Shown here in pieces: positions 37,992 to 57,303 of a stretch of DNA of 59,846 bases; within the stretch, counting starts at the first letter, position 1, and every line of letters starts with the position of its first letter. The position numbers and the translations under genes were made by a program. The stretch spans positions 1 to 59,846 of the forward strand of contig VXRD01000149.1 of assembly GCA_009838845.1 (NCBI GenBank), read 5' to 3'. The stretch comes from Gemmatimonadota bacterium. Lineage in GTDB: Bacteria; Latescibacterota; UBA2968. Below the pieces are notes generated by a model. The model was not told the origin of the DNA. It did not search any database and saw only the letters and a list, made by a program, of their open reading frames with translations.

Positions 37992-38098
37992 GCCCTGTCG
38001 GATCCATTTTTGATGTGAGTTTGTATATAAAAAACCAACCTTTAGTTCGGAAAATATGTGGGATGCTTGATGGATTGGCAATCTCTTTATGTTATCGC

Positions 38099-39694: not shown

Positions 39695-39753
39695 CGAATT
39701 CCTTTCTAAAATCTGCCGATACGTGTTGATCCTGGATGGAAAACTCCAGGCCT

Positions 39754-41553
39754 CTATTGTTGTTGAAAATAGGAATCGTAAAGGATTTGGCAGGCTTCAC
39801 CTCGGGTTAAATGTGCGAGTGTGTTGGTGTCGAGTTTTTCTCCACACAACTGGACAAAACCATCGATCCAACGATGCGCTGTGTGCTGGTCAAGTTTATC
39901 CTGCGGTCTGGCATCGTATGTATCGAAGAATCCCTTTGTACCTGCCCATTGTATAGCGGCGTTGTGTGCATAGTCGTCGTTAAGGTCAATATCATTGAGA
40001 AATGTGAGCATGGAATTTTGTTCGGCCAGGGTTTGTTGAAGCTGATCAATATCAATGTCGGCCGGTGTCTGTTTGTTTTTGATGGCCTGGACGGCCGCAT
40101 AACCAGCAGACTCGGCAATTTGCATCCAGGTGGGCTCCAGACGAATCGCGCTTTGTCCGAGGTGGCTGGAAGAAAGGCAGACTGGGACGAGGAAATTGTC
40201 TAATTCATTGGTGAGCAGGCTTCGATAAGGGATCTGGCCAGGGACGGTTTGCTTGTGGAGCATGACTTTGCCTTCATCGCGACTGTCTTTGACGCGTTCG
40301 GGATGGCAGGCGTGAACGTCCGTGTACCATTCACAAATAGCAATAGTATCTGAGTGAATGGGCGCTCTGTCTATGCCTTCGGCCAGGCGAACATCGTGCT
40401 CGGTGAGCATATAACGCCCTTCGAGACGACGGGCTTCGCGCACATAGATCTCCCAGGGCATGTGATTGTTGTCGGGAAATTCGTCTTTGGCCAGCCCCCA
40501 CTGAGCAAAGGCTTCGCGCATGTTTTCGGGCGCATCGGGATCGTTTTGAAAGAAATACAAAATGCCAATAACGATGTTCCAGAAGTCTTTCAAGATGCGC
40601 TGACGGGTTGGCCAGTCGCCGTGGACATAGTCGGTCGCACCTTCAATAAGTTGTGGTCGGTTCCAGTCGCTTTTGTTGTTGGGAAATTGTCCGCCATCTT
40701 GCCCGCGATCAGGTCTGTTGACTTCAAGGGATTGGAGTAAGGTTTTGATGCGTGCGGGATCGTAGTCTTCTGGTGGCTCTGGTTTGACCTGATTGTTGGG
40801 ATCGCTGCTGAGGGCTGTGCGAAAGTTCATGGCTTGCACAACACCATCGCCTTCGCCCGTGCTATCGGGCATGATGGTTTCCATCGCACCACCAAATTGC
40901 CTCAGGTTTAGCGATGCAACAATGTCGGCCATGTGTTGTTCTGACTCGGGAAGCTCCTTTGCAAATCGCATAAAGATGCGACCAGCGTGAGGTTCGTTAA
41001 ATTCGTCTTTGGATTCACGCCCGACTCTGAAAGCGACATTGGCTAAGGGTAGAAGATCGCCTTCGTAAGAAGTATCGACAAAGATATCTCCGGTAGCTCG
41101 GAAGCTTGCCTCGCGATTCATTTCTGTGAATGTGATGGCTGTAATTAAGCGGTCAGCTTGTTCGATATCGGTAGGGTAATGGCTTTTGATCAGGGTAATG
41201 TTTGATTCTGCCTGTATCATTTCTTCCGACAATTGTTCGAAGACACGCGCTTCGTATTTGCCATTAGAGTGGCCCGTTTCGCCGGGCAGGCAGGCTGCGT
41301 ATTGCGGTGAATCTTTTCCATAGGTATTGCGGTAATGATCGAAGATCGCCTGACGCATCTCATTGTAGATGGGCGATCGCCAGCCTTCGTAAAGTGTATC
41401 CCAGAGTCCCATCCCATTGGCTGGCAGTCCACCGATGTGGGGTGTATGATTGACGATCAAGACGGTCAATCCTTCACGCGCAGCTCGAACTGCACAGGCA
41501 AGGCCTGCGGGATTGCCGCCGTAGATGACGAGGTTGTAGTGAGTACCTTCCAT
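39754..41553 (-). CDS. FAD-dependent oxidoreductase (FAD_oxidored) with C-terminal SLH-like segment
   Basis: The 599-residue protein starts HYNLVIYGGNPAGLACAV, with HIGGLPANGMG and DIFVDTSYEGDLLPLA as in FAD_oxidored proteins. The last about 90 residues (HNAAIQWAGTKGFFDTY, then ahead LTRGEACQILY) look like an SLH-type or dockerin-like module. The start at 41553 is only a base from the end of the duplicated kinase cassette. Its upstream region is thus cassette DNA, and its original promoter may be lost. It reads through from the kinase gene. Confidence 0.8.
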   Translation of the reverse strand: MEGTHYNLVIYGGNPAGLACAVRAAREGLTVLIVNHTPHIGGLPANGMGLWDTLYEGWRSPIYNEMRQAIFDHYRNTYGKDSPQYAACLPGETGHSNGKYEARVFEQLSEEMIQAESNITLIKSHYPTDIEQADRLITAITFTEMNREASFRATGDIFVDTSYEGDLLPLANVAFRVGRESKDEFNEPHAGRIFMRFAKELPESEQHMADIVASLNLRQFGGAMETIMPDSTGEGDGVVQAMNFRTALSSDPNNQVKPEPPEDYDPARIKTLLQSLEVNRPDRGQDGGQFPNNKSDWNRPQLIEGATDYVHGDWPTRQRILKDFWNIVIGILYFFQNDPDAPENMREAFAQWGLAKDEFPDNNHMPWEIYVREARRLEGRYMLTEHDVRLAEGIDRAPIHSDTIAICEWYTDVHACHPERVKDSRDEGKVMLHKQTVPGQIPYRSLLTNELDNFLVPVCLSSSHLGQSAIRLEPTWMQIAESAGYAAVQAIKNKQTPADIDIDQLQQTLAEQNSMLTFLNDIDLNDDYAHNAAIQWAGTKGFFDTYDARPQDKLDQHTAHRWIDGFVQLCGEKLDTNTLAHLTRGEACQILYDSYFQQQ

Positions 41554-42522
41554 GTGTTGGTCGTCTCTATAGCAGTGATCTGATCTCATCCACCGCTAAC
41601 GGTAGTCTCCGAATCTGCCCTTCGAAGTCAAAGCGTGAGAGCACGGCGTCTCTCACCGTTCCTGGTTTCTCAATATAGTGCGATAGCTGATCAGCATAGT
41701 AGGCCGCCCATACAACTCCAAATGTTTCCCGGTCTCCGACTGAGAGTGGTCGCTCAGAAAGATAGCCTCGTAGGAAATCCAGCATCTCTTTCTTCAATAG
41801 AGATCGTCCCCCAGTCAGATCATTCATTAGCCATCTGTGTTGGACCATTACAAGATCTACAGTAGCTGGCGCAAAAGAGTTGCAGAGATCGGTGAAACCG
41901 ACTTTCTCGCCATCCGCGTGGACGTTGGGACCCCAGACATCCCCATGCGTTGTCATCCACCGTACGGATGTCCGTGTTAGGTGCTTGTAGGTGGTTTGCA
42001 ACTCGGTCTGAAGGGTCTTGATGGCGCCGCAGAGATCGCCAGGAAGAGAACGGGAAAGCGCTCGCCGAAGTCTGACCTCCACAAAGCCAGTGAGATCTTT
42101 CTTCTGCATCCTGGATTTTTCGAACTTCTCCGATGCCAGATGAATCTTGGCAAGTCCACGTCCCACCGCACCCAATTGGTGGAGGTGACGAGAGTTGCAA
42201 GGTTCCCCACCGAGATCAGTTTCCACGGAGAGCACAACAGCATCTCCGATCATGATACACAAATCTCCGGAGAGAGTGGGGACAATCTGGGGGACAGGGG
42301 CATCATTTGTTGATAGATGGTTGAGGAACTCGACAACTTCCTCCGGACAGAACTGACCCCGTGCCCAGTTCAATCGTGCAAAGAATGTCGCCCCATTCTT
42401 TTTGAATGAGAAAAGGCGCCCCGTGCCTGGTACCGGTATGAGAGAACCATCGAACTGCCAGGCTGACCGAAAGGCCTCCTGAATTTTCTCCTTTGGTGGA
42501 ATCTGATCCACTAACTGCTCCT
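41554..42522. repeat. Kinase cassette duplication, copy A (969 bp)
   Basis: It is near-identical to 53102-54070 (copy B), and the encoded proteins differ at only a few percent of residues. Boundaries are sharp: GTGTTGGTCGTCTCTATAG on the left and AACTGCTCCT on the right, beyond which the DNA differs. The right end has GTTAGTG overlapping the kinase start codon. An 18-bp segment (TGAAAGGATCGACCTACA) is also shared farther out (43529 and 54137). Confidence 0.9.
41567..42511 (-). CDS. APH-family phosphotransferase, copy A
   Basis: The 314-residue protein has the Brenner loop MTTHGDVWGPNV (Asp and Asn intact) and the metal Asp in GFTDLCNSF; the N-lobe starts FDGSLIPVPGTGRLFSFKKNG. It belongs to the APH/choline-kinase fold with an unknown substrate. 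Translation starts at a GTG in GTTAGTGGATCAG, so the core-like GTTAGTG carries the start codon. It is about 95% identical to the protein at 53115. It ends 14 bp before the FAD_oxidored gene. Confidence 0.8.
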   Translation of the reverse strand: MDQIPPKEKIQEAFRSAWQFDGSLIPVPGTGRLFSFKKNGATFFARLNWARGQFCPEEVVEFLNHLSTNDAPVPQIVPTLSGDLCIMIGDAVVLSVETDLGGEPCNSRHLHQLGAVGRGLAKIHLASEKFEKSRMQKKDLTGFVEVRLRRALSRSLPGDLCGAIKTLQTELQTTYKHLTRTSVRWMTTHGDVWGPNVHADGEKVGFTDLCNSFAPATVDLVMVQHRWLMNDLTGGRSLLKKEMLDFLRGYLSERPLSVGDRETFGVVWAAYYADQLSHYIEKPGTVRDAVLSRFDFEGQIRRLPLAVDEIRSLL

Positions 42523-42538
42523 CCGATAAAGAGTTCCA

Positions 42539-43525
42539 TCACGGCTTCCAGGCGAATCGACCATATCGAGGCGTTTTTGGAGGCACGATCGGTAACTCCT
42601 TCCACCCGGACCTGGTTTCAACCATGATTTTCGGGCCGCCCTTTTTAGGATCTGGAAAAGCCCGAGTCACAAATCCATCGGGAGACCATGTGGGATCATC
42701 ACCACGCCCTGCTTTTCGCTTATTATTTCCATCACTATCGACAACCCATACATTCCAGGTTTCACCGATCAGCTTGTCTCTTTCGCGATCTTGTCTCCCT
42801 GTGAATTTGCTCATATGGATCATCTCCACACCTTCCCAATGGGCGATCCACTTGCCATCCGGTGACCAGGCAGGGACTTTTTGTTCGATGGGAAGCTTGA
42901 GGGTCCCGTCATGTTCAGCAGACGTTGGTGAAATTGGTTTGGCATCACTGCCATCGAGATTGCTCAACCAAACCCTATAGTTGCCGCTTCGATTTGAAAC
43001 AAAGGCCACCTTTGTTCCTTTCGGCGAGACAACGGCCATCGAATTGCTGAACTTAATTTGTTGAGGATCGCTGAACAATCGCCTTGATTCTCTGGTCTCA
43101 GTGTTCATGATGTGCAACTGGCTGTTTTCAGCGGGATCTTTTCCTGGTTTGAATATCATCCATACGATGTGTTTAGAATCAGGAAACCAGGAAGGTATCA
43201 AATTTCTCCCCGATTCTGTGAGTACTTTCTGGTTTCTGCCATCAAAGTTGGAGATCCAAAGAGCCATTCCTTTTTCGCTCTGTTGCACAAATACAATTTT
43301 ACTGCCGTCAGGAGACACGGCAGGCATCATACATTCATGATTGGAATTTGTAATTTTGCGCCTGGATGAACCGTCCTCCTTGATGTGATAGAGTTGTAGT
43401 ATGTTATTTTCATCAGGGCAACTGACAATAATCTCACGCATTTGAGACTCTCCAGCAAACAAGCCATCTGACACGCAAGCAATCGTAAAAATAGCCGGGA
43501 TCAATATTAAGAATGATTTCATCAT
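42539..43525 (-). CDS. TolB-like beta-propeller (PD40) secreted protein
   Basis: The 328-residue protein has a signal peptide (FLILIPAIFTIACVS, possibly a lipoprotein with Cys) and PD40 repeats: AVSPDGSKIVFVQ, SWFPDSKHIVWM, VVSPKGTKVAFVSN, AWSPDGKWIAHW, TWSPDGFVTRAF. It probably folds as a six-bladed propeller in the periplasm. Related proteins bind peptides or glycans. It stands between the two kinase cassettes and has no close partner here. Confidence 0.8.
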   Translation of the reverse strand: MMKSFLILIPAIFTIACVSDGLFAGESQMREIIVSCPDENNILQLYHIKEDGSSRRKITNSNHECMMPAVSPDGSKIVFVQQSEKGMALWISNFDGRNQKVLTESGRNLIPSWFPDSKHIVWMIFKPGKDPAENSQLHIMNTETRESRRLFSDPQQIKFSNSMAVVSPKGTKVAFVSNRSGNYRVWLSNLDGSDAKPISPTSAEHDGTLKLPIEQKVPAWSPDGKWIAHWEGVEMIHMSKFTGRQDRERDKLIGETWNVWVVDSDGNNKRKAGRGDDPTWSPDGFVTRAFPDPKKGGPKIMVETRSGWKELPIVPPKTPRYGRFAWKP

Positions 43526-43576
43526 ACGTGAAAGGATCGACCTACAGGTTGAAAATCAGAGATTTCTTCACATTCT

Positions 43577-43637
43577 AACCATGCGTCTGGCGAGTTCAGA
43601 TCCGATGCCTTTCCCTTGCCATTCTGGCAGCACCTCG
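43577..43637 (-). pseudogene. Relic of a GNAT gene
   Basis: About 61 bp match 18955-19020 of the GNAT gene at 18823, the motif A region: CATGCGTCTG, GATCCGATGCCTTTCCCTTG and CCATTC-GGCAGCA. The rest of that gene is missing. It lies just before the end of the M14 gene and has no open frame. Confidence 0.75.
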
Positions 43638-43668
43638 ATGGGGCCAACTCGCCAACGCGATCGCACCA

Positions 43669-44796
43669 TCACACCATCGTCTCCAAATACACCTTCAACG
43701 CTGTAGCCAGATCGCGTCCAAATGCACGCGCCAGTTCTGGACTCGTATCCAGATCGCCCACATTGGCATAGGGAAACTCAATTGCCGTTGCCAATTGAAC
43801 ACCCGGCAATTCACCCGCCCATCGACCAAAGCTCTTGCCAGCTGCATAATTCTCTGCCGTATTCCACTCCACGCCAAAGGGCAAATTATCCGCTGCACAA
43901 AAGGGCAAGCCTCCTGTTCGTTCCGCTTCCAAAATATGCGAAAACCGTATCTGTTCCTGCCAGGGGGCTTCTGACTCAGATCCCACCAGATAAATCGTCT
44001 CATTGCGATTACTACGAATCCACGGACAGTGCAGATCAATCGCTACCTTCAGTTTGCCCGCGCTCCAATCCGGCACCCTTTCTCGCATCACAGCCGTTTC
44101 AATATGCACACTCTCCCCGACATAATCCCGGTTGTGATCCCTCGGCTTCCGATTCTTCCCCTGATCGCCATCCTCCACACCGTCTTTATCCACAAACGGA
44201 ATCACCAGGCATTCAACTCGTCCCTGAAACCAACGCCCTAAATCATCCTCACCAAGTATCGCCGCCATTATGCCTTCCAGCACGTAAGACTGCATCATCT
44301 CACAGCAGTGGTGTCGCGCCGCAATCAACACGCGCAGATCCGCCCCACCGTCCAGCCGTCCCACATACAACATCTCAACATCACGTCCTTTGTGCGTCTC
44401 GCACAACGTCTCCGCCACCAGATAATCCGAATCCACATACGACGCCAAAAACCGGTCCAGATCGGCCTGCACATACGGCATCCCAAAACTGAACCGCACA
44501 TCATCCGCGTCATTCGCAAACGCATACACAAACGACTGCCCATCCACCGCATCATTACCCAACCAGCGCCACGTCACCCCACCGTCTTCACTCATCCCAG
44601 GACCACGCGTACCAATCACATTGCTACCGGTAAAGTGAAACCGCACGGTTCGGCCTGCTGCGCCACGCACCCGAAAATACCAGTAGAACCAGTCGCGATC
44701 CGTATCGCGCAGATCCTGTCGAACAAACACATCATCACCGTCAATTCGCTCGGTGATGATATTCCCACCCGGAAAATCACAATCTATCATAATCAT
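43669..44796 (-). CDS. M14-family zinc carboxypeptidase-like protein
   Basis: The 375-residue protein has the metal motif H-x-x-E as AARHHCCEMM, the substrate Arg in NRDY, and the third ligand His in AIDLHCPW, with Glu-like YANVGDL further on. An N-terminal beta-sandwich with GPGMSEDGGVTWRW precedes the catalytic domain (about residues 1-130), as in cytosolic carboxypeptidase relatives. It may trim peptides or D-amino-acid conjugates. The start at 44796 overlaps the stop of an 11-codon mini-ORF, suggesting coupled translation; an in-frame Met follows at 44790. Confidence 0.8.
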   Translation of the reverse strand: MIMIDCDFPGGNIITERIDGDDVFVRQDLRDTDRDWFYWYFRVRGAAGRTVRFHFTGSNVIGTRGPGMSEDGGVTWRWLGNDAVDGQSFVYAFANDADDVRFSFGMPYVQADLDRFLASYVDSDYLVAETLCETHKGRDVEMLYVGRLDGGADLRVLIAARHHCCEMMQSYVLEGIMAAILGEDDLGRWFQGRVECLVIPFVDKDGVEDGDQGKNRKPRDHNRDYVGESVHIETAVMRERVPDWSAGKLKVAIDLHCPWIRSNRNETIYLVGSESEAPWQEQIRFSHILEAERTGGLPFCAADNLPFGVEWNTAENYAAGKSFGRWAGELPGVQLATAIEFPYANVGDLDTSPELARAFGRDLATALKVYLETMV

Positions 44797-44851
44797 TGAA
44801 CACGCTTCTTTATGATGTCGATTTGCATTTACTCCTCCACTATCCATTGGA
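44788..44851 (-). repeat. Duplicated upstream region of the M14 gene, copy A
   Basis: Sixty-four bases are the same, with one mismatch, as 55956-56019. It holds GGAGGAG followed by an 11-codon ORF overlapping the gene start. Here it precedes the M14 gene; in the other copy it lies upstream of an unrelated zinc-ribbon gene. Confidence 0.85.
44793..44828 (-). CDS. 11-residue upstream ORF with strong ribosome-binding site
   Basis: On the minus strand GGAGGAGTAA is followed by an ATG and 10 more codons (MQIDIIKKRVQ), and the TGA overlaps the ATG of the M14 gene (AATGA). The in-frame longer reading of the M14 gene would use weaker signals. It is kept in the second copy at 55961-55996 with one residue changed. 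A coupling leader is the likely role; a chance frame cannot be excluded. Confidence 0.4.
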   Translation of the reverse strand: MQIDIIKKRVQ

Positions 44852-44859
44852 GCGGTAAT

Positions 44860-45375
44860 CTAGATAGACAATGGGCGACGGAGCCGGATTTGGCGTCCGT
44901 TGTCTCGAACACCGCCATCACGTTTCCACCCCATCGCCTCGTAGAAGGCGATCCCGCGTTCATAACCCTTAATAGTCCAAACTATCGCTTCATTATAACC
45001 GTCGGCAACGAGATGACGAAACGCGAGCGAGGCCAACGCCTTGCCGATGCCGATGCGCCAATACGAGGGGTCAATGGCGATGGTATCGAGTTCCCCTAAT
45101 GTGGCGTCAACGGGATCGCGGCTGGGACCGATGCCGACAAAACCGACAACCTTACCCGTATGCTCTGCGACCCACCACCGGTGCGGGGCAGACTTCGCAA
45201 GATCGCCGCGCCAACGCTCAACAAGTTCTGATGTGACGATGCGATTGGACTGCTCGATGAGTTCGCCGAATCCTGCATTCCACGAATCGATATATATACG
45301 TGTGACGACTTCGGCGTCCACCGCAGTGGCTGATCGGATCGTTGGCCAAGGTTTTCGTGGATGTGCGTATTCCAA
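44860..45375 (-). CDS. GNAT-family N-acetyltransferase
   Basis: The 171-residue protein has motif A DPSYWRIGIGKALASLA, motif B ERGIAFYEAMGW and the strand VVGFVGIG. It starts with TTG at 45375, 12 bp after the end of a truncated kinase gene. The acceptor is unknown. Confidence 0.8.
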   Translation of the reverse strand: MEYAHPRKPWPTIRSATAVDAEVVTRIYIDSWNAGFGELIEQSNRIVTSELVERWRGDLAKSAPHRWWVAEHTGKVVGFVGIGPSRDPVDATLGELDTIAIDPSYWRIGIGKALASLAFRHLVADGYNEAIVWTIKGYERGIAFYEAMGWKRDGGVRDNGRQIRLRRPLSI

Positions 45376-45386
45376 CTCGCCTATTC

Positions 45387-45692
45387 CTATACGGACTTGT
45401 AGAGGCTACCATCCGTGGTTGGACGGATGTCAGGACACGGCGCGCCGCGATCGGCAAGGTGTCGAACAAACTCCACAATGGTTTTGGGATGGGTCGAGCC
45501 GTCCCATCCCGGATTCACGCGGAACACAACGCGTCCGTCCCGCATACTATCACAAAAGAAGACGCACCGCGAATTCGCCCTGCGGACGCTGGTTACTTCC
45601 AGATCCCAGAATCGCTTGCAGAGATCCATAATTTCTGGCTGATCAGGCAGTGGGCCCGTTTCGTCTCTATATCTGGGATAGCGTGGTTCCAT
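45387..45692 (-). pseudogene. N-terminal fragment of an APH-type kinase gene
   Basis: The 101 residues have the N-lobe order also seen in the kinases at 41567/53115: FRVNPGWDG, then TIVEFVRHLADRGAP and TTDGSL. The catalytic loop and the C-lobe are missing: the frame stops before the GNAT gene. It seems a kinase gene cut short. Confidence 0.65.
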
Positions 45693-45732
45693 TGGTTTTC
45701 TCGGCCCAGGACTGGCCGTAGCGGCGCGAAGA

Positions 45733-46023
45733 TTATAGGTGGTACATGAGTTCCCAGTTGCACGATTCGCATCTCAGAATCGTATCCTTCATACCGTCGT
45801 GGTCTATCTGGCGATCACATAATGGACATCTTGCTCGTCCAGCACTGGCTTCTCGTGCTTTGAAAATGCTTTCGATACGAGCGAAGAGTCCAATCCCCAC
45901 GTCTTCAATAAGCTCTTCGTCTACTATGCCCTGTGCATCAGTTGCATAAAGGCGGGCTATTTTTTCTCTTGGAACTCGACTTGCCCAAGTTGGCCTGTCG
46001 TGTCTTGGTTTCGGGTTGCTCAT
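45733..46023 (-). pseudogene. Truncated copy of a zinc-ribbon protein
   Basis: The 96 residues align from end to end with the first 105 of the 244-residue protein at 55199: KIARLYATDAQGI, then CPLCDRQIDHDG and LRCESCNWEL with two CxxC knuckles. The remaining C-terminal 140 residues are absent here, and a stop follows at once. It may still make a small zinc protein, so I call it truncated rather than dead. Confidence 0.65.
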
Positions 46024-46058
46024 GTATTCCTTAGAGATTTTTCAGGAGCATGTTTTTT

Positions 46059-48545
46059 TTATTCATTCCGCAAGGCATCTACAGGATTTGATCGAGCTGC
46101 CTTCATTGTCTGGAAACTCACTGTGATCATGGCAATAAGGAAAGCCAAGATACCACTTAACATAAAGAACTCAAATCCAAGATCTACCCGATACGCATAA
46201 TTCTGAAGCCACTGCCACAGGGCATAGTAGCCAATCGGCCAAGCCAAGAGATTTGCAAGTGCGACCAACTTTGCAAAATCACTGGATAGCAACATAACAA
46301 TATTGGATACAGACGCTCCCAATACCTTGCGAATGCCGATTTCTTTTGTACGGTATTGCGCACTCAATGTGGCCAACCCAAGTAACCCCAAGCAGGCAAT
46401 CAAAATACCAAGGGTTGAAAAGAAACCAAAAATATAGCTCAGTTTTCTTTCATTTTTATAGATTCGATCCAAATTCTCATCAAGAAAAGAAAATGTGAAT
46501 GGACGATTGGGTATATACCTTTCCCAGACTTTTTGTACAAATGCCAGTGTTTGAGATAAATCTTCAGATTTGACCTCTAGGTATAGTAGCCTTGCCTCAT
46601 GAAATTCTGCAACCAATACGAGTCGTCCGATTTTTTCGTCAAGAGGTTTGTAATGAAAATCTTTGACAACACCGACGACTGTGCCGGAGCGTAGTCCATC
46701 TGGGTAGAACGTGCCTCCAACCTTCCAAGCAAATCGTTTCCCTATTGGATTTGTCCAACCCAATTGCTCGACCGCTGTTTCATTCAAGATAAACTGCTCG
46801 TCTAATTTTTCCCTCAGTCTTTGCGGGTTTGTTGTTTCGGCATATGATCGCGTGAAATTCCGGCCTGATACGCATTTAATGCCATAGAAATCTAGAAAAT
46901 CCTCATCCACGATTATCACATCCATACTGTACGTGGATTTTCCTTCGGGATGGAATGTCTCTACTGTTGCTCCTTCTCCAACAAGGCCACGGGTGGTTGT
47001 TGCTCTGAGAATATTGGGATGCGTCGTGAATGCCTGCTTGATGGCGTTGTATTGGCTCTTGAAAAGCGTGGGATTGATCATTTGGTTGCTATTCGCTGCC
47101 TCAAAAATTGGAACTTCAATAATCTGCTCGCGGTCGAATCCCAGATTCTTATTTCGAAGAAATTTCTGTTGACTGTAAACACCCGAAGTGACAACCATCA
47201 ATAAAATGGCAAGAGCAAATTGTCCTACAACCAAACTCTTGCGAAGCCGAGTAGAGACGTTTGTAGCGGATTTACCTCTCAACATTGAAACAGGGCGAAA
47301 TGTCGATAAGACAAATGCCGGATAACTCCCTGCCAGAATACCGACGATGAATATAAGACCGAAAAGGCTGAGCAATAACTGGGTTGTGTTGACATTGAGT
47401 GTAATAGCGCAATCAAAAAACGAATTGAAAGTTGGCAATGCCAATTCTACCAACACCAAAGCCAAGATAAGCGCCATACAAGCAAAAAATATAGATTCGC
47501 CCAAAAATTGTGTGATGAGCTGCAATCGGTTTGCACCGACAACCTTACGAAGCCCGACCTCTCGCCTCCGCCCAATTGCACGAGCAGTTGTTAGGTTTAT
47601 AAAATTCACACAGGCAATTACTAAAATAAAAATAGCAAGCAAAGAAAACAAATACACATTTTGAATGTCACCATGAGGTTTACTGGTCTCTGGAGTACCA
47701 CGATTCTCAATTTTGATGCCATAATCATGATTGGAGTATAGATGGATGCGGTTTAGGGGCTGCAAATGATATTGAATGTTATTTGCAGCTGCTTCGCCCA
47801 GGTATTTCGGAATCAGATCTGAAAGTTTGCCTTCAAGTTGATTCGCATCATAACCTTCTTTAAGCAAAATATAGCTTTCTACAGGACGCCCCCCTCTCGG
47901 TTTCCAAGCCATCCATTTTTCTTGCCATCGCCCATTTTTAGTCGCCGATAAAATATCGAACCGAATGGCCGTCTGCGCAGGCATATTTTTTAAGACGCCT
48001 GTAACGTGATGCGCATAATCTTTGTCGTCTTCCTCGATCAGAATGGTTTTGCCAATCGGATTTTCAGTGCCAAACAGTTTGTGTGCAAGTCTGTGAGTGA
48101 TTAAAACGGAACCTGGTTCTGAGAGAACCGTTTCGGGATCGCCTTGAATCAGTGGAAAGTCAAAAACCTGTAGAACATTCTCGTCTGTAAGGCAAAAGGC
48201 TTGTTTGTATATTCTCTTATTGTCAGCAATTATTGTTCTTTGCCAGCGATGGATACGCAAAGCCTCAGAAATTTCAGGATATACATCCTGATTCAAGACT
48301 TCTACGAGACCTCCTAATGTGCGCTCACTAAAAGCTGCTTGGTCAACTGTTTTAGTCTCTCGAATCACCCTGTAAATTTGATCTCGATTCCTTTGGTTCT
48401 GATCAAAACCTAATTCATAGTCGATATAGAGGCCTATCAGGATACAACAAGCCAAACCAATGGCTAATCCGATAATGTTCAGAGCTGAGTAGAAACGATG
48501 GTTTATCAGGTTTCTCAGCATTATTTTGAGATAATTTTTCAGCAT
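46059..48545 (-). CDS. FtsX/MacB-type ABC transporter permease
   Basis: The 828-residue protein has an N-terminal membrane anchor (IIGLAIGLACCILIGLYI), a periplasmic MacB-PCD-like domain (about 50-240), then two sets of FtsX membrane segments, and the conserved E-V-G-L-R-K-V-V-G-A-N and RTKEIGIRKVLGAS loops, ending in SNPVDALR. Such large duplicated permeases pair with a MacB-like ATPase; none is near. A 122-residue fragment of a sister gene is at 21202. A role in export or membrane maintenance is inferred. Confidence 0.85.
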   Translation of the reverse strand: MLKNYLKIMLRNLINHRFYSALNIIGLAIGLACCILIGLYIDYELGFDQNQRNRDQIYRVIRETKTVDQAAFSERTLGGLVEVLNQDVYPEISEALRIHRWQRTIIADNKRIYKQAFCLTDENVLQVFDFPLIQGDPETVLSEPGSVLITHRLAHKLFGTENPIGKTILIEEDDKDYAHHVTGVLKNMPAQTAIRFDILSATKNGRWQEKWMAWKPRGGRPVESYILLKEGYDANQLEGKLSDLIPKYLGEAAANNIQYHLQPLNRIHLYSNHDYGIKIENRGTPETSKPHGDIQNVYLFSLLAIFILVIACVNFINLTTARAIGRRREVGLRKVVGANRLQLITQFLGESIFFACMALILALVLVELALPTFNSFFDCAITLNVNTTQLLLSLFGLIFIVGILAGSYPAFVLSTFRPVSMLRGKSATNVSTRLRKSLVVGQFALAILLMVVTSGVYSQQKFLRNKNLGFDREQIIEVPIFEAANSNQMINPTLFKSQYNAIKQAFTTHPNILRATTTRGLVGEGATVETFHPEGKSTYSMDVIIVDEDFLDFYGIKCVSGRNFTRSYAETTNPQRLREKLDEQFILNETAVEQLGWTNPIGKRFAWKVGGTFYPDGLRSGTVVGVVKDFHYKPLDEKIGRLVLVAEFHEARLLYLEVKSEDLSQTLAFVQKVWERYIPNRPFTFSFLDENLDRIYKNERKLSYIFGFFSTLGILIACLGLLGLATLSAQYRTKEIGIRKVLGASVSNIVMLLSSDFAKLVALANLLAWPIGYYALWQWLQNYAYRVDLGFEFFMLSGILAFLIAMITVSFQTMKAARSNPVDALRNE

Positions 48546-48621
48546 GTGTCTGCCCCAAAGAAGTGATTTCGGTTATTGGCAATTTCAGTTCTCATGAAAT
48601 CAACATAATGGATGCACTCTG

Positions 48622-48666
48622 GGGATTATTAACGAACTGTTACGGTAATTCATACCAAATCTATGT
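48622..48666. repeat. Short dispersed element, copy 1
   Basis: The sequence GGGATTATTAACGAACTG then GGTAATTCATACCAA matches 51161-51202 with a few changes and one 3-base gap. It lies between the permease and the kinase genes. Part of it (TTAACGAA) recurs at 9271. Confidence 0.65.
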
Positions 48667-48777
48667 ATCTCCGACCTTGCGGGAACTCTTCTCTTCAGAG
48701 GTTGTATCCCGAACATGTTCGCAGATGCTTCCTCTGGAGGCATCATTTCTATTCAGAACCCGCCTCCTTTCCCTCCA

Positions 48778-49668
48778 TCAACGCACCTGCCCCATAGGCC
48801 ATTCCGAGGTCGGCCTACCTTGCCACGTTGATCGCCTGAAGAATCGTCCGCCTGGGGGGTGGCTAAACCAGCTACTAATTGCGATTCCCCAAAAGTGCTC
48901 AAAGGATCTGTCTTTTAGATTTGCGTCACAGTATGCGTAGTGCGACAAGACCTCGTCGAGGAATGACTCTCCGTATATCCAGAACCCATAGAAATCCTTA
49001 GCGGGATCCGTGATTTCGATGTCCCCCCAGTCTATGATCCCAGTAAGTCTTCCGGTCGAGGGATCATGATAGATGTGTTTGTACCAGAGGTCGTTGTGAG
49101 CCAGCACAGGCTCGTATGAATGATTGATGCTTTCACTTCTTTCGATCCATGCTTCGAAAACATTGCGGACCTCACATTGAAGCTCGTCTGCCCGTTCAGC
49201 GAATAACTCCTTCCACATCCTGCGACGCCTAACCGATGCGTTACCCTCTTCTACGCCGAGGCTCCGTGCCTTCGTGATCGGGTAGCTGTGGAGTTCGCTG
49301 ATGAAAACACCCAGCCTCTGAGCGGCCTCGCTGCGGTTCGCCTTGGAAAGTCTCCAAAACCGCCACGGCGAAAGTCGAGTCCCCGGAATTGTGTGGTATC
49401 CCGCAAAATCTGACGCCTTCGGCACGAATGCATAGTCGGGAACGGGTATTGCCTTCAGGTTGCTTCTAAGGGCATCCAGGACGGTCCGCTCCCTCGTCAG
49501 ATTTGTTTCCTCATCGTTCTCGAACCGGAAAGCGATGCCATTGTCCAACAGAATCATTACATGATCGGGATCGGCAATGGTCTGAACTCTTCGGTAATTT
49601 GCCCACATGAGATCTGGAAAGGCGTCTCTGATTCTCTCCAGGTAGTAGCTGGAAGCCAATGGGGGCAT
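48778..49668 (-). CDS. APH-family phosphotransferase with H-x-D-x4-H motif (cassette gene)
   Basis: From the Met at 49668 the protein has 296 residues, with AHNDLWYKHIY as the loop (His in place of Asn), GIIDWGDIEITDPAKDFYGFW, and DRSFEHFWGIAI near the end. It is a close relative of the kinases at 57304 and, less so, 14026. A longer frame to 49770 would translate an attC-like site, so the true start is likely inside. It starts about 37 bp after the GTTAGCG end of attC-like site 4. The substrate is unknown. Confidence 0.8.
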   Translation of the reverse strand: MPPLASSYYLERIRDAFPDLMWANYRRVQTIADPDHVMILLDNGIAFRFENDEETNLTRERTVLDALRSNLKAIPVPDYAFVPKASDFAGYHTIPGTRLSPWRFWRLSKANRSEAAQRLGVFISELHSYPITKARSLGVEEGNASVRRRRMWKELFAERADELQCEVRNVFEAWIERSESINHSYEPVLAHNDLWYKHIYHDPSTGRLTGIIDWGDIEITDPAKDFYGFWIYGESFLDEVLSHYAYCDANLKDRSFEHFWGIAISSWFSHPPGGRFFRRSTWQGRPTSEWPMGQVR

Positions 49669-49704
49669 GGGGACCTGCCAAAGAGGATTAATTGTCGCGA
49701 TTTC

Positions 49705-49759
49705 CGCTAACTGTTGGGTGAAGCCCGAATGGCCGAAGCCGTGTACAGTCGTGTTATGC
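49705..49759 (-). other. attC-like recombination site 4
   Basis: Minus-strand ends are GCATAAC (inverse core) and GTTAGCG, which fits GTTRRRY except for its last base. Shorter than the others (55 bp), it keeps an inner GGGTGAAGCCC hairpin and GGCCGAAGCC. The AGCCGTGTACAGTCGTGTTATGC part resembles the right half of site 6. It lies 80 bp past the stop of the GNAT gene and before the kinase gene. Confidence 0.55.
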
Positions 49760-49838
49760 GGTGTGCTCACTTCATTACGGCGGGAGAAGCTCTGTGGAAA
49801 GGTTCCGCAAGCCTGGAGTTAGTGACCGTGCTCCCTCC

Positions 49839-50315
49839 CTACTCACGCTCCACGAAATACTTCTTAAATCCACGACTCGTCCCATCTTGCATTCCAAGGC
49901 TTCTATAGAATTCCACCTGATCTTTGTTGGGACCGCTGAGTAACTGTAGCTTGTAGCAGCCCTTCTCTTGGGCAAGGTTAATCGCAAATGTCATCAGTTT
50001 TTTCCCAAATCCTTTGCCTCTTTGTTCGCGTGCAACAACGACATTCTCGATGATAGCCCAAGGGCGCCCTTCGTAAGTAAAATTTGGAACGATAGCCATT
50101 ATGAGGCTGGCGACTATGCCCTTGTCCGATTCGCCCACAACGATGAATATATTGCCGTAGTCAGACATCTCATCGAAGATCCGGATTGACTCTTCGAGTC
50201 CGAGAGTCTTAGCCGAAAGACTATGGGGACGGCTCGTGATCTGAGGAAAGAGATTTAGCAGAGATTCGACGTCTAATCTGGTCGCAACTCGGCAAGAAAT
50301 GTCTGAATGATTCAT
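49839..50315 (-). CDS. GNAT-family N-acetyltransferase (cassette gene)
   Basis: Starting at 50315 after AAAGG gives 158 residues with motif A VVAREQRGKGFGKKLM, motif B KDQVEFYRSLGM and a Gly-rich strand VVGESDKGIVASL. The longer frame to 50357 is unlikely, since it would begin at a core-like site (GTTAGCA). Followed by site 4, it has gene-plus-attC order. Confidence 0.85.
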   Translation of the reverse strand: MNHSDISCRVATRLDVESLLNLFPQITSRPHSLSAKTLGLEESIRIFDEMSDYGNIFIVVGESDKGIVASLIMAIVPNFTYEGRPWAIIENVVVAREQRGKGFGKKLMTFAINLAQEKGCYKLQLLSGPNKDQVEFYRSLGMQDGTSRGFKKYFVERE

Positions 50316-50329
50316 CCGGTGACCTTTCT

Positions 50330-50350
50330 CGACTACGGACGTGTTAGCAG
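50330..50350 (-). other. Half attC-like site (core only)
   Basis: TGCTAAC on the minus strand follows the stop of the map gene by a few bases and is joined to CGTCCGTAGTCG. CTACGGACGTGTTAGC resembles the core ends of the sites at 5124 and 56642. A second core and arms are missing, so the site looks truncated. Confidence 0.4.
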
Positions 50351-50362
50351 AAGTCAAGCCGC

Positions 50363-51106
50363 TCAGGCCGCAGTCAGCAAAATAGGCTGGCCATCGGTAA
50401 TAACGACGGTATGCTCAAAATGAGCCGAAAGAGATCCGTTTGAGGTTTTCACTGTCCAGCCGTCGCAATCTTCAACGGCTTGGGTTGGATGCTCGGCAAT
50501 CATAGGCTCAATGGTGATCACAAGACCATTCGTAAGCGGCTTAGAATCGAACGGATTGTAGGTGTTTGCAACGATGGGATCCTCATGGATAACTCGACCT
50601 ACCCCGTGCCCCGCAAGCTCATTGACAACCCAGAATCCTTGTCTCTTTACCTCGTGCTCTACGGCATGACCGATGCAATTGATCGGTTTGTTTGCACGAG
50701 CTACGGCCACCGCCTTTTCAAATGCCGTACGGACACATCGACACAATCTAGCGGCTTTCGCGGAATATGGAGGAATCGGGATGGTGATTGCTGCATCTGC
50801 AATGTAGCCGTTCAGTTCAGCGGTGACATCCAGGCTTACAATGTCACCCTGTTCCAGCACTCGGTCACTCGGAATACCGTGAATGATCTCATCATTGACA
50901 CTGATAAGATTGACGCCGGGAAAACCGTAAAACAGCCGAGGTGCGGAGGTTGCCCCGTATCGATTGAGCACCGACTCGCCAACGCGATCGACTTCCGCTG
51001 TGGTTACTCCCGCGCGAACAGCACCCGCCATTGCCTTTAATGTGGCGGCGACCACTTGCCCTGCCTGTGCAAGGCCTTCGAAATCCTCAGGACATTCTAT
51101 CGACAA
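50363..51106 (-). CDS. map: Methionine aminopeptidase type I (cassette gene)
   Basis: The 247-residue enzyme has all five metal ligands of MetAP: Asp in SLDVTAELNG, Asp in YIADAAI, His in GHGVGRVIHEDP, Glu in ITIEPM and Glu in HFEHTVV. It removes N-terminal Met from new proteins. Translation starts with TTG at 51106, seven bases after AAAGGAG. It is bounded by GTTAGCA at 50343 and TGCTAAC at 51151, so it seems to sit in a cassette, an unusual place for a housekeeping-type enzyme. It may be an extra copy. Confidence 0.9.
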   Translation of the reverse strand: MSIECPEDFEGLAQAGQVVAATLKAMAGAVRAGVTTAEVDRVGESVLNRYGATSAPRLFYGFPGVNLISVNDEIIHGIPSDRVLEQGDIVSLDVTAELNGYIADAAITIPIPPYSAKAARLCRCVRTAFEKAVAVARANKPINCIGHAVEHEVKRQGFWVVNELAGHGVGRVIHEDPIVANTYNPFDSKPLTNGLVITIEPMIAEHPTQAVEDCDGWTVKTSNGSLSAHFEHTVVITDGQPILLTAA

Positions 51107-51146
51107 TGAACAACTCCTTTTTGAAGGTGATAACTCTCAATCTTGA

Positions 51147-51202
51147 TTTCTGCTAACTACGGGATTAACGAACAGTTTCGGTAATACATACCAATTTATG
51201 TT
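51147..51202. repeat. Core-like end plus short dispersed element, copy 2
   Basis: The plus-strand sequence TTTCTGCTAACTACGGGATTA is close to TTTCCGCTAACTACGAGATTA at 58265-58286 before the kinase gene. It continues into GGGATTAACGAACAG and GGTAATACATACCAA, matching 48622-48666. It lies just upstream of the map gene. Confidence 0.6.
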
Positions 51203-51332
51203 CCATGTGAATCTTGTAGTCAGCAGCAGGAACTGTCAGCCATGGATTGATCATAGTTAGGTTCAAATTTGTTACTGCCGAAGATGTGAGCCCACTCACT
51301 AAGAAACATAAGCGACCTTCGGGCTCTTCCCT

Positions 51333-52955
51333 CTACCGGGTGTCGGGCAACTCGAGGATCTGCGCTGCCTTCAACAACTCGGGGCGTAACTCATCGTACG
51401 GCAGATCCTGCGTGTCGCAATCGGCATCCAGACACAGCTTTGCTGCCAGCCCAGCAGACTCTCCCAGGACCATGAATACCGGCTCCATGCGCGCGCTACC
51501 GTAGGATATGTGAGAGGCCGAGAAACATACGGGGATGAACAGATTTGCTGTCTCCCCCCTCTTTGGCACGATACTCCGGTAGCTTAAAGGATAAGGGTCG
51601 GTCGGGGGGATCTGCACATCCCCTTCGTTGAGGACACGTGCCACGCCTCCTTCGACATGTACGAATCGGGAGCAATTATGCGAGTCCATGGTGTAGCTAC
51701 CCATCCCGATCGAGTCCTCTGCGACTGACTTCTGGTAGCAGTCGTGCTCAGTGATGACGTAGTCGCCGATCATCCGGCGACATTCGCGGATATACAATTG
51801 ATGCGGCCAGTGCTCGGTATCGGTGAACTCGTCACTGGATAGACCCCAGCGGCTGTAGGCGTCACGCACGCGCCGGGGAATCGCCGGTTCGTTGGCCAGA
51901 TGCCAGTAGAGACCGCGCTGGTAATTGACGTGCGCCTGGAATATGGCCTCCCGCTCCTCATAGCCAGCGGCGGGCCATCCCCACGATCTCCCGATGAAGT
52001 CACTGCTGATGGGGCCGTTGTTGTTGGTATCGGTTTTACAGTAGCCGCCGGGTGTTCTGTTCGGGAAGATGTCGAACTTCCCGGGTACTCCGCTGTCGCG
52101 TATGTGGGCAACCGGGTCGGCGCTGTGATTCGGATTCTGGCTGTCTCCGCCCACAGTGTTGAACCAGCGCGTCGCAAGGACATACTGGGCAGGATCGAAC
52201 GCGTCCGGCTTAGTCCAGTCGATCTTGAGCGCAGGATCATCGGTCATGCATACGCGGAAGCAATAGGCTTGCACACGGTGATCGCCCTCGCCCTGTCGTG
52301 CCGCCAGATCGGTCTCCTCGATCTGAGGCAGCAGCCCGCTGTCCGGGTCACCCGGTTCCACGTAGGGATCTACGGTAAGACCGAACTGATGTTTTTCTCG
52401 CACCTGGATGCCGTTGAGCGTCTCACCGTAGATCTCATTCGCCTCACGCCCCACGTGGAAGGAGACACCGGCCTTCGCCATCAGGTCCCCTTCGTAGGAG
52501 CAGTCCATAAAGATCTTGGCGCGGACCCGGAGCCCGCCAAGGAGCGTGATGGAAACGATACGTTGATCAATAGATTCGACGGCGTCCAGATACTGACCGT
52601 ACCGGACATCGATACCGTTTTCCGAAATCCACGCATCGAAAACAGCGTCGGCGACGTGGGGCTCGAATTGCCACTCTTCATTCTGTCCGTAGTGCCGTCC
52701 AACCTGGTTGTAGAAGGATCGGCTCAGTCCACCGATAACGTACTTACGGCCGAAGTCCGTCCACCCGAGTCCGCCGGTTGTCATGCCACCGATGTGTTGG
52801 CCCGGCTGGAGGATGACGACACGTAAACCGGCCCGTGCGACTGTGACGGCTGCAGCGACACCCCCTGACGAGCCGCCGTAGATGCAGACATCCGTTTCGA
52901 TGATCTCAGTTGTAGGTTCAATCCAGTCGCGATGGAAGTATTTGAGATTCGACAT
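51333..52955 (-). CDS. FAD-dependent oxidoreductase (FAD_oxidored)
   Basis: The 540-residue protein starts ETDVCIYGGSSGGVAAAVTV, then QHIGGMTTGGLGWTDFG and KIFMDCSYEGDLMAKAG, with ARMEPVFMVLGESAGLAA near the end. It is of the same family as the genes at 36227 and 39754. It might oxidise a sugar or polyol. The 3' end is followed by 140 bp of spacer up to the cassette region. It lies 160 bp downstream of kinase copy B. Confidence 0.85.
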   Translation of the reverse strand: MSNLKYFHRDWIEPTTEIIETDVCIYGGSSGGVAAAVTVARAGLRVVILQPGQHIGGMTTGGLGWTDFGRKYVIGGLSRSFYNQVGRHYGQNEEWQFEPHVADAVFDAWISENGIDVRYGQYLDAVESIDQRIVSITLLGGLRVRAKIFMDCSYEGDLMAKAGVSFHVGREANEIYGETLNGIQVREKHQFGLTVDPYVEPGDPDSGLLPQIEETDLAARQGEGDHRVQAYCFRVCMTDDPALKIDWTKPDAFDPAQYVLATRWFNTVGGDSQNPNHSADPVAHIRDSGVPGKFDIFPNRTPGGYCKTDTNNNGPISSDFIGRSWGWPAAGYEEREAIFQAHVNYQRGLYWHLANEPAIPRRVRDAYSRWGLSSDEFTDTEHWPHQLYIRECRRMIGDYVITEHDCYQKSVAEDSIGMGSYTMDSHNCSRFVHVEGGVARVLNEGDVQIPPTDPYPLSYRSIVPKRGETANLFIPVCFSASHISYGSARMEPVFMVLGESAGLAAKLCLDADCDTQDLPYDELRPELLKAAQILELPDTR

Positions 52956-53101
52956 CGGCTGTGATCTCCGTGCGTTCGTCCGCGGTGAAGGATGTGTGAC
53001 ATGACGAAGCGACCAGCCTCACCTTTACACACGAAGGCAATGGTGAAGTTGGCGATTCTCTCTTCGGGAGATTCCTGCAGATTCTGTAGCTATTATACGG
53101 C

Positions 53102-54070
53102 GTGTTGGTCGTCTCTATAGAAGTGATCTGATCTCATCCACCGATAGCGGTAGTCTCCGAATCTGCCCTTCAAAGTCAAAGCGTGAGAGCACGGAGTCTT
53201 TCACCGTTCCTGGTTTCTCAATATAGTGCGACAACTGATCAGCATAGTAGGCCCCCCAGACGACTCCAAATGTTTCCCGGTCTCCGACTGAGAGTGGTCG
53301 CTCAGAAAGATAGCCTCGTAGGAAATCCAGCATCTCTTTCTTCAATAGAGATCGTCCCCCAGTCAGATCATTCATTAGCCATCTGTGTTGGACCATTACA
53401 AGATCTACAGTAGCTGGAGCAAAAGAGCTGCAGAGGTCGGTGAAACCGACTTTCTCTCCATCCGTGTGGACGTTGGGACCCCAGACATCTCCATGCGTTG
53501 TCATCCACCGTACGGATGTTCGTGTTAGGTGCTCGTAGGTGGTTTGCAACTCGGTCTGAAGGGTCTTGATGGCGTCGCGGAGATCGCCAGGAAGAGAACG
53601 GGAAAGTGCTCGCCGAAGTCTGACCTCCACAAAGCCAGTGAGATCTTTCTTCCGCATCCTGGATTTTTCGAACTTTTCCGATGCCAGATGAATCTTGGCA
53701 AGTCCACGTCCCACCGCACCCAATCGGTGGAGGTGACGAGAGCTGCAAGGTTCCCCACCGAGATCAGTTTCCACGGAGAGCACAACAGCATCTCCGATCG
53801 TGATACACAAATCTCCGAAGAGGGTGGGGACAATCTGGGGGACAGGGGCATCATTTGTTGATAGATGATTGAGGAACTCGACAACTTCCTCGGGACAGAA
53901 CTGACCCCGTGCCCAGTTCAATCGTGCGAAGAACGTCGCCCCATTCTTCTTGAATGAGAAAAGGCGTCCCGTGCCTGGTACCGGTATGAGAGAACCATCG
54001 AACTGCCAAGCTGACCTAAGGGCCTCCTGAATTTTCTTCTTTGGCGGAATCTGATCCACTAACTGCTCCT
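53102..54070. repeat. Kinase cassette duplication, copy B (969 bp)
   Basis: The partner of copy A at 41554-42522, in the same orientation. It lacks the neighbouring TolB-like gene of copy A, but the 18-bp TGAAAGGATCGACCTACA is again found 67 bp beyond its right end (54137). Confidence 0.9.
53115..54059 (-). CDS. APH-family phosphotransferase, copy B
   Basis: The 314-residue protein is nearly identical to that at 41567 (for example KKKIQEALRS against KEKIQEAFRS) and keeps THGDVWGPNV and GFTDLC. It too starts with GTG in GTTAGTG. Differences are spread along the gene, so the copies have been separate for some time but both look intact and selected. The substrate is unknown. Confidence 0.8.
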   Translation of the reverse strand: MDQIPPKKKIQEALRSAWQFDGSLIPVPGTGRLFSFKKNGATFFARLNWARGQFCPEEVVEFLNHLSTNDAPVPQIVPTLFGDLCITIGDAVVLSVETDLGGEPCSSRHLHRLGAVGRGLAKIHLASEKFEKSRMRKKDLTGFVEVRLRRALSRSLPGDLRDAIKTLQTELQTTYEHLTRTSVRWMTTHGDVWGPNVHTDGEKVGFTDLCSSFAPATVDLVMVQHRWLMNDLTGGRSLLKKEMLDFLRGYLSERPLSVGDRETFGVVWGAYYADQLSHYIEKPGTVKDSVLSRFDFEGQIRRLPLSVDEIRSLL

Positions 54071-54210
54071 TCGGTACATGGTTCTCATTTGTCTTGGTCC
54101 CGGAAAGTAATAGGGAAAAACACCTATCGCATTACTTGAAAGGATCGACCTACAAGACTTTTTCAACCTGCATTGAGTTACCGTCAATGTAGTGGCCGCA
54201 GTTTGTTGTG

Positions 54211-55125
54211 TTATCGACCATCACTGGTGCGAGGAGCCGACAGACCCTTCGAAAACTCAGACAACGTCTCTACCATTGAGAACCCGTAGTTTGCATAGAA
54301 AGCCTGGGCTCTGTGATTTTTCTCGTTTGTGCTGATAAGCACGGTAGTAAAACCCCGCTGCTTGATCTCGTTGAGTGTAGTTAGGAATATGAACCGTCCC
54401 CACCCCAACCCTCTCAGAGCGTCCCTCACGTTCAGCCAAGCGACAAAACACACGCGCTCAGCAGCTTTATTGAGCTGAAAGTGACTGCCCGCACGAGTGT
54501 AGCACACGCCGATCACCTCGTCGGCGTGGTCATAGACCCTGAGGTTCAGCCCTGAGGTTCGTCCCCGGCTCTCAGTTGTCTCCCATTCGATTCTTCCTAC
54601 CTTCTCGGGCGGATCCAGCTGGCTGGGTGCAATCCCACCCTCCTGAACCAGTAGTATCTCACGTCGCGAAACACTGTAGCCGTTCAGACCCAGAATCGAA
54701 GTAACGTGTAGCCACTTGTCGGGTAAGCCGTAGCAATTGAAGAAGAATCTGTACAGATAATCTGGGCAGAACGCCCTGATGGTCTCCACATCCGTCAGCC
54801 GAGCTTCGGCAGAGACAAGAAGCTCCTGCCCGATCCGACGGTGACCTGGAACGAAGTCCAAATAACGAATTTGTCCGATCCTCCCGGCTTCCTCCTCGGC
54901 AACCGAGACATGCGCGATACCCAGGATTTCCTCACCCTCAACTGCGCAGAGAAATTGCTCCGTTCCGAGGTTTGTATATGGCTGTTCATCAAACGGCTTG
55001 TGAATACAGCCCCATTCGAACTCGTGTCGTGAAACAGGGTAGCGGTGGGGCAGAGTTCCTATGCGTGAGTTGTAAAATGCACGGAAGTCGTCTGCTCCTA
55101 ACATGTCACTTTCGACGATCTTCAA
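54211..55125 (-). CDS. Two-domain GNAT acetyltransferase
   Basis: The 304-residue protein holds two GNAT-like halves. The first has YLDFVPGHRRIGQELLVSA and a degenerate motif. The second has DALRGLGWGRFIFLTTL and QAFYANYGFSMVE, a good motif A and B. Twin-GNAT proteins often use one half for acetyl transfer and the other for binding. It starts with TTG at 55125 or ATG at 55104. The acceptor is unknown. Confidence 0.8.
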   Translation of the reverse strand: MKIVESDMLGADDFRAFYNSRIGTLPHRYPVSRHEFEWGCIHKPFDEQPYTNLGTEQFLCAVEGEEILGIAHVSVAEEEAGRIGQIRYLDFVPGHRRIGQELLVSAEARLTDVETIRAFCPDYLYRFFFNCYGLPDKWLHVTSILGLNGYSVSRREILLVQEGGIAPSQLDPPEKVGRIEWETTESRGRTSGLNLRVYDHADEVIGVCYTRAGSHFQLNKAAERVCFVAWLNVRDALRGLGWGRFIFLTTLNEIKQRGFTTVLISTNEKNHRAQAFYANYGFSMVETLSEFSKGLSAPRTSDGR

Positions 55126-55198
55126 TCAGTATCTCTTGTGGTTGCTGGTGTTGAGATTTTTGGTTTTGCCCGCCATAAACAGGGCAGTCGGATTCATT

Positions 55199-55933: not shown

Positions 55934-55955
55934 CAGGTGCCCTACGCGAATCCAA

Positions 55956-56019
55956 CATAATCATAGAACACGCTTCTTTATGATGTCGATTTGCATTTAC
56001 TCCTCCACTATCCATTGGA
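55956..56019 (-). repeat. Duplicated upstream region of the M14 gene, copy B
   Basis: It is the same as 44788-44851 except one base; it keeps GGAGGAG and the 11-codon ORF at 55961-55996 (ending in Leu instead of Gln). No M14 gene follows it; a short open stretch fuses into the zinc-ribbon gene's upstream region. Confidence 0.85.
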
Positions 56020-56083
56020 TCCGTCAGGGCTTCGTAATCTGAAGATGCTGATAGGGGTTGGTTTTTGTCTTGTTTTAGGCACT

Positions 56084-56533: not shown

Positions 56534-56567
56534 TGGAGTGATCTCGATAATATGTATTTCTCATTAC

Positions 56568-56648
56568 ATTTAATGTTTTATGGCTTGCGAACCGCGCAGG
56601 GGTTGGGCGAAGGCTAAATGACTGGAGCCGGGCACGGTCGTGTTAGCC
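56568..56648 (-). other. attC-like recombination site 6
   Basis: On the minus strand it opens with GGCTAAC and closes with ATTAAAT. Inside are GCTTGCGAACC, GCGCAGGGGTTG and GGCGAAGG, in the order seen in sites 2 and 3, and a GGCTC/GAGCC pair. The stop codon TAA of the GNAT gene at 56643 lies inside the opening core. Confidence 0.65.
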
Positions 56649-57167: not shown

Positions 57168-57208
57168 AAGTTCATTCCTTCAAGTTTGAAGACCAGACGG
57201 GCAGTTTC

Positions 57209-57294: not shown

Positions 57295-57303
57295 GAAGCG
57301 GCA

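Follow-up and report, generated by a model that had tools for sequence, protein, structure and literature searches.

One kinase gene in two blocks of an apparently integron-derived gene array in Latescibacterota

Gene content and organization of the locus

The window, which is the whole stretch of 59,846 nucleotides that was analyzed, comes from a 5.75-Mb genome of a Latescibacterota genus. It holds a one-directional gene array with a strand bias of 50.1 kb (minus) versus 4.9 kb (plus). The array encodes eight APH kinases, seven GNAT acetyltransferases, methyltransferases, HAD hydrolases, and FAD oxidoreductases, together with MFS, PhyH, sulfatase, and deaminase genes. This is a mixture typical of cassette arrays. 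No transposase or insertion sequence was found among the open reading frames of the window scanned with Pfam. The array ends at a UVR-motif core gene, whose position is kept in the sister genomes G002, G006, and G010. The sister genomes, cited by such handles below, are mostly fragmented assemblies. The coordinates of all features are collected in Table 1.

In a comparison of the window with five other genus genomes, the shared blocks range from less than 0.1 to 5.6 kb and are mostly 95-99% identical, and their order differs between genomes, so that the array is a mosaic between species. For the same genome pairs, the core identity is 90-93% as measured on two 20-kb core loci. Since the array blocks are mostly closer than the core, the array genes have been exchanged between species.

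Other repeated pieces were also seen in the array. A glycosyl transferase family 3 gene with a full copy at 25023-26153 also occurs as a 0.36-kb remnant (6148-6509, corresponding to 25020-26040), a further gene fragment with about 660 bp lost internally. A second pair of APH kinases, 48778-49770 and 57304-58221, shares 61% protein identity, each member being a cassette start at G^TTAGCGG. A 79-bp GNAT gene fragment (85%) occurs at 43558-43636 and 18936-19014, and in several sister genomes it stands before different genes. The public bin JAPPIE010000005.1, labelled Gemmatimonadota, carries the array, and its label is probably wrong.

Table 1 Features of the kinase repeat, its neighbours, and the array in the window.
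Feature	Position	Strand	Remarks
One-directional gene array	4618..58275	minus	mosaic between species
FAD-A gene	39754..41589	minus	PF12831; likely start codon about 41553; downstream neighbour of copy A
Kinase copy A	41554..42522	minus	RBS + 314-aa APH-family gene 41567-42511 (GTG start) + 17 bp after stop
PD40 gene and leader	42539..43579	minus	gene 42539-43525; block start G^TTAGAATG at 43579
22-bp repeat containing the 18-mer, A side	43525..43546	minus	
76-bp repeat	44781..44856	minus	5' end of 392-aa gene
Last codons of integrase and attI-like element	48628..48786	minus	crossover end lost; 97-99% to G002 integrase 3' end + attI
attI-like element within array	51157..51201	minus	ends CCCGTA^GTTAGCAG, followed by M24 peptidase cassette
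FAD-B gene	51333..52955	minus	PF12831; downstream neighbour of copy B; 29% identical to FAD-A
Kinase copy B	53102..54070	minus	same make-up as copy A; gene 53115-54059; 40/969 differences from A
GNAT304 gene and leader	54103..55180	minus	gene 54211-55125; block start G^TTTATGG at 55180
22-bp repeat containing the 18-mer, B side	54133..54154	minus	
76-bp repeat	55949..56024	minus	remnant of the 5' end of the 392-aa gene, fused ahead of 244-aa gene
Degenerate attC-like site	57209..57300	minus	between APH305 and GNAT174 cassettes; next cassette G^TTAGCC at 57215
attI-like site, core/array boundary	58275..58345	minus	ends CTCGTA^GTTAGCGG; internally deleted relative to sister genomes
UVR-motif gene	58421..59170	minus	PF02151; conserved array edge

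Extent and edges of the kinase repeat

The two kinase copies lie 11.5 kb apart and align in an ungapped register (offset 11548) with 40 differences in 969 positions and 0 gaps, that is, 95.9% identity. Identity is lost a few bases beyond either end, and the outer 60 bp match at 15/60 and 19/60 positions, which is the chance level. The sequence-only reading had described a 969-bp repeat with sharp ends at the same bases, and this description was borne out. A whole-genome search returned the repeat as 983 bp at 95%, because scattered matching extends to about 42536/54084, and found only these two copies in the genome. The copies do not extend far beyond their boundaries; such an extension is what that reading had named as its own refutation. 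With flanks at chance identity and copies so far apart, the arrangement is not that of a tandem or segmental duplication.

Both copies have the ribosome-binding site AGGAGCAGTTAGTG. GTTAGTG overlaps the GTG start in both, as had been noticed (minus strand, 42515-42509 and 54063-54057); the motif is not unusual, with 3 occurrences on the minus strand of the window versus 3.8 expected. Identity among the kinase copies begins 7 bp ahead of GTTAGTG in all contexts. The 3' edge is CGACCAACAC, and no attC was found at the edges of the unit. The unit therefore shows neither the 5' edge at G^TTRRRY nor the 3' attC of an integron gene cassette. When the unit ends were compared, there were no inverted repeats and no target-site duplication, and the flanks of the two copies were unmatched; the terminal repeats and target duplication of a transposon or insertion sequence are thus missing, as is any transposase family among the scanned open reading frames. 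The edges also vary between copies. A 30-bp leader is common to copy B, the G006 copy, and the G010 remnant only, and the leader shared by copy A and the G010/G003 type is only about 12 bp.

The downstream gene of each copy is an FAD_oxidored gene (PF12831), again as first noticed, but the two FAD proteins share just 29% identity. The 18-bp TGAAAGGATCGACCTACA lies farther out from both copies, with exactly two occurrences (43529-43546 and 54137-54154) versus 0.02 expected. As a genome-wide mobile motif it was rejected, with two exact copies in the genome and four more at 2-3 mismatches; it is possibly a regulatory motif. Two near matches of the 18-mer TGTAGGTCGATCCTTTCA, with 2-3 mismatches, lie close together on contig G000:C137 (20697-20714 and 24831-24848). 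Still farther out, 44781-44856 and 55949-56024 form a 76-bp repeat at 93%. This piece was considered as a unit end and dropped: it represents the 5' end of the 392-aa gene, has no third copy in the genome, and is apparently left over from a neighbouring gene.

The kinase translations match PF01636 with 34.2 and 40.5 bits (cut-off 23.2), and both contain THGDVWGPN, the HGDxxxxN catalytic motif. By these two marks, the encoded proteins are predicted members of the APH phosphotransferase family. The NCBIfam homoserine-kinase match is weak and far under its cut-off, and defence-system models gave no match among 8 proteins. The differences between copies A and B fall on the three codon positions as 10, 9, and 21, mostly the third, with dN about 0.023 and dS about 0.11. 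This indicates that both copies have been kept as genes.

Kinase copies across the genus

Six full copies of the kinase were found in five species of the genus, plus two remnants. The gene lies between PD40 and FAD-A in this genome (copy A) and in G001, between GNAT304 and FAD-B in this genome (copy B), between GNAT304 and a 531-aa BNR gene in G006, between GNAT135 and FAD-A in G010, and between GNAT135 and FAD-B in G003. The remnant in G010 adds a fourth upstream context. The upstream and downstream contexts of the kinase are reassorted across the genus.

All six copies differ pairwise at 30-44 of 942 positions (3-5%), and copies A and B differ at 40 of 942. As A and B are as distant from each other as copies of different species, they are not recent copies of each other. 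The sequence-only reading had favoured movement or copying of a cassette unit over tandem duplication. The idea of a re-sited gene stands, with four upstream and three downstream neighbours in the genus and no tandem or segmental pattern; that of a discrete mobile cassette copied within this genome is not supported, given the missing mobile-element ends, the A-B distance, and the nature of the sites without the kinase described below.

The kinase tree had no supported branch, and the FAD-B-linked pair grouped weakly. In the alignment, 198 of 325 pairs of informative sites were in conflict, a PHI-type test for recombination within the kinase was not significant (p 0.88), and sites close to the flanks followed the flank weakly. 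When locus-equivalent copies are compared, the divergence of the kinase is about double that of the adjoining FAD and GNAT genes (Fisher p 0.0009, 0.003, 0.003, and 0.04; against PD40, p 0.09). Its dS is modestly higher than that of its neighbours, and the kinase may simply evolve faster than they do.

Sites without the kinase were examined in relatives, where the sequence-only reading had suggested looking for empty sites. G001 lacks 53057-54102, a stretch of 1046 bp at site B that includes flanking bases. G010 lacks 52972-54185, a larger deletion at the same site which takes part of the GNAT gene. In G003, 22-27 bp of the kinase remain, fused to the start of FAD-A, and G010 keeps an 82-bp 5' fragment of the kinase elsewhere. 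These are deletions with remnants or nested ends and not clean pre-insertion sites. The missing kinase copies are losses by deletion, with two nested deletions of unequal size at site B. A homologous deletion between kinases A and B was considered as the source of the G006 arrangement and dropped, as the 3' flank in G006 is of the B type.

Recombination sites and junctions of the array

In G002, an attI-like element lies about 130 bp behind a recombinase gene and ends GTTCGTTAATCCCGTA^GTTA, and cassettes start after it. In G006 and G010, the same element marks the boundary between array and core, and it is found inside the arrays of this genome, G001, G002, and G003. Its copies are followed by different sequence from G^TTA onward, except the copy at 48628, which has lost its crossover end. 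Elements ending CCCGTA^GTTA border different first genes in different species.

The attC-like sites were called by a home-made scan. A strict scan for classical attC with 7-bp arms gave counts barely above shuffles, and a relaxed hairpin scan, run with controls, took its place. The relaxed scan called attC-like sites in G002 and one strong site each in G004, G007, and G009, versus zero in Markov controls. The sites in these four genomes have imperfect inverted repeats and AAC...GTT ends, and their bottom strands form better folds than shuffled sequences, with a strong effect in the short sites. In the window itself, the relaxed scan detected no intact attC. The degenerate site in Table 1 was missed by the scan and was read by eye against a G002 site (L076 7970-8058). 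Rfam gave no match.

Among 123 clusters of independent block-start junctions, 8 have a shared GTT exactly at offset zero, versus about 2 at other offsets. Two of the eight are the PD40 and GNAT304 block starts, which carry kinases A and B; the first is an identical junction in G001 and G007, the second in G006 and G002. The other 115 clusters are not at G^TT. Neither are the kinase edges, and no G^TT junction coincides with one. The array thus combines one orientation with exchange at G^TT, though most of its junctions are elsewhere. It is the larger array, and not the kinase unit, that moves by site at G^TT junctions. Taken together, the attI-like borders, the attC hairpins in four sister genomes, and the block starts at G^TT indicate that the array is integron-derived.

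An integrase without the IntI-specific domain

The recombinase gene in G002 (L051 1216-2346, contig G002:C51) lies between the orthologue of the UVR-motif gene and the array, and it encodes a tyrosine recombinase of 376 aa. The best sequence matches of this protein are the integron integrase 2a3v and XerA-like recombinases. Its alignment with 2a3v falls into two pieces with 25 aa between them versus 67 aa; the distance from the box-I Arg to HxLRH is 90 aa versus about 128. The protein lacks the IntI-specific additional domain, and it is extended at its N-terminus by about 90 aa. That domain was reportedly taken as the defining mark of an integron integrase by Messier and Roy in 2001. TIGR02249 gave no match over its cut-off in nine genomes of the genus. 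An integrase of the G002 kind is absent from this genome.

Homologues were found in another Latescibacterota family, in G030 (L094 11586-12860) and G031 (L097). Behind both lies an attI-like AAATGAAATA^GTTAGC, followed by first genes that differ. In G002, G030, and G031, the candidate attI sites therefore stand beside the integrase gene with a putative crossover at G^TT. Homologues on Bacteroidota plasmids of Rufibacter and Chryseobacterium point into one-directional arrays whose gaps contain attC-like sites, 4 and 5 of them versus means of 0.1 and 1.0 in ten Markov controls. No such attC-bearing one-directional array was found with the plasmid homologues of Persicobacter and Microvirga. The insertion is absent from the four homologues compared and from G031, with 89-90 aa between the catalytic boxes. 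Of the tyrosine recombinases that lack the insertion and read towards attI-like sites or attC-bearing one-directional arrays, those on Bacteroidota plasmids lie at L101 5626-7080 and L102 5962-7005. Under the definition used in the field, these homologues do not count as IntI (PMC9668308), yet their position and sites resemble those of integron integrases.

The best NCBIfam match of the G002 recombinase, at 215.7 bits against a cut-off of 220, is NF040815, 'site-specific tyrosine recombinase/integron integrase' (XerA-like), which is the best match of its homologues too. That name also spans Xer-like proteins, whereas the G002 gene adjoins attI-like sites and attC hairpins.

Discussion

The reading we favour, with a probability of roughly two in three, is that the kinase repeat is a single-gene homology between otherwise unrelated blocks of a decaying integron-derived array, in which an allelic family has been joined to new contexts and reassorted. 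The array would have been built through site-specific capture at the attI-like site beside the UVR-motif core gene, with the integrase as the putative driver of cassette capture, and its genes would pass between species of the genus. Sequence-independent breakage and rejoining in a permissive array would have linked the kinase to several neighbours, so that complete or fragmentary kinase genes came to lie beside new ones; the remnants, deletions, and fusions in sister genomes support such repeated events. The kinase would then persist as a family of alleles in the pool, with its flanks being reassorted. The flanks were probably swapped via homologous recombination over the shared 1 kb, an exchange within the kinase that we infer, since the local recombination test was not significant. 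This genome carries both the FAD-A-linked and the FAD-B-linked kinases; in its sisters, one of the two has been lost.

A discrete mobile unit of about 970 bp, transposon- or cassette-like, could instead have been inserted twice with the kinase. The edges are indeed sharp and near-identical in A and B, the kinase has several different neighbours in the genus, and in G001 the B flanks are joined with no kinase between them. We regard this as unlikely, because the edges lack the inverted ends, target duplication, transposase, and attC of such a unit, the 30-bp leader makes them vary, and the G001 site is also short of flanking bases while G010 has a larger nested deletion there. Equally improbable is the acquisition of two diverged alleles separately in larger blocks (PD40-kinase-FAD-A and GNAT304-kinase-FAD-B), without any duplication in this lineage. 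Blocks of kinase and neighbour are shared whole with other species at 96-98%, and the core identity is lower, but the origin of several kinase contexts would be left unexplained, and this account partly overlaps with the favoured one.

An assembly or binning artefact is very unlikely. The assembly is fragmented (172 contigs) and the genus has shared arrays, but the A context occurs independently in G001, the B flanks occur in G003 and G006, and both FAD genes are found together on single contigs in each of G001, G003, and G010. Recent duplication within this genome by copying or gene conversion, which the 95.9% identity and the count of just two copies would suit, is the least probable account, since A and B are as far apart as copies of different species and FAD-A-linked and FAD-B-linked kinases both occur in other species.

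The kinase repeat within a decaying array, as favoured here, can be compared with known systems. The array resembles a sedentary chromosomal integron that has lost its integrase (CALIN-like): it shares the one-directional array of small-molecule-modifying genes, the attI-like and attC-like sites (in the genus), and the G^TT cassette boundaries. An integrase-less integron descendant is known in Treponema phagedenis (PMC3607928), and CALINs have been described (PMC8618304). Unlike a CALIN-like remnant, the window has no intact attC, its blocks are large and multi-gene, and its junctions are mostly non-specific deletions or fusions. As the window has no intact attC and the genome no integrase, we read the array as decayed. 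The integrase gene in G002 reads towards attI as in the Treponema-type integron, but it differs from that type in the missing IntI-specific domain and the N-terminal extension. Partial or whole attI-like copies inside the array (51157-51201 and 48628-48694) are a likeness to Delta-attI-type cassettes, which are known from class 1 integrons with IntI1 (PMC12901181), whereas the array here is known from sequence. No report of integrons in Latescibacterota was found in the open-access literature.

The IntI-specific domain (I2) is held necessary for attC recombination. It is also held to have given integrases their activity on single-stranded attC, with intermediates noted as lacking (PMC7790495). 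In a survey of tyrosine recombinases, the insertion was not fully conserved in an integron-like subgroup, yet it was called essential for integron function (PMC8138268). We propose tentatively, at a little under even odds, that the I2-less integrase lineage forms working integrons in Latescibacterota and on Bacteroidota plasmids, reading towards attI and capturing hairpin-flanked cassettes, and that the window array may be a decaying relic of one.

By itself, the kinase repeat is ordinary turnover of a gene pool, and its setting counts for more. That setting is an apparently integron-derived array in Latescibacterota, with blocks at 95-99% identity between species whose core stands at 90-93%, and, beside a sister array, a putative integrase without the domain by which integron integrases are defined and detected in the field. 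IntegronFinder requires the IntI-specific domain (PMC9668308), and therefore such integrases would be missed.
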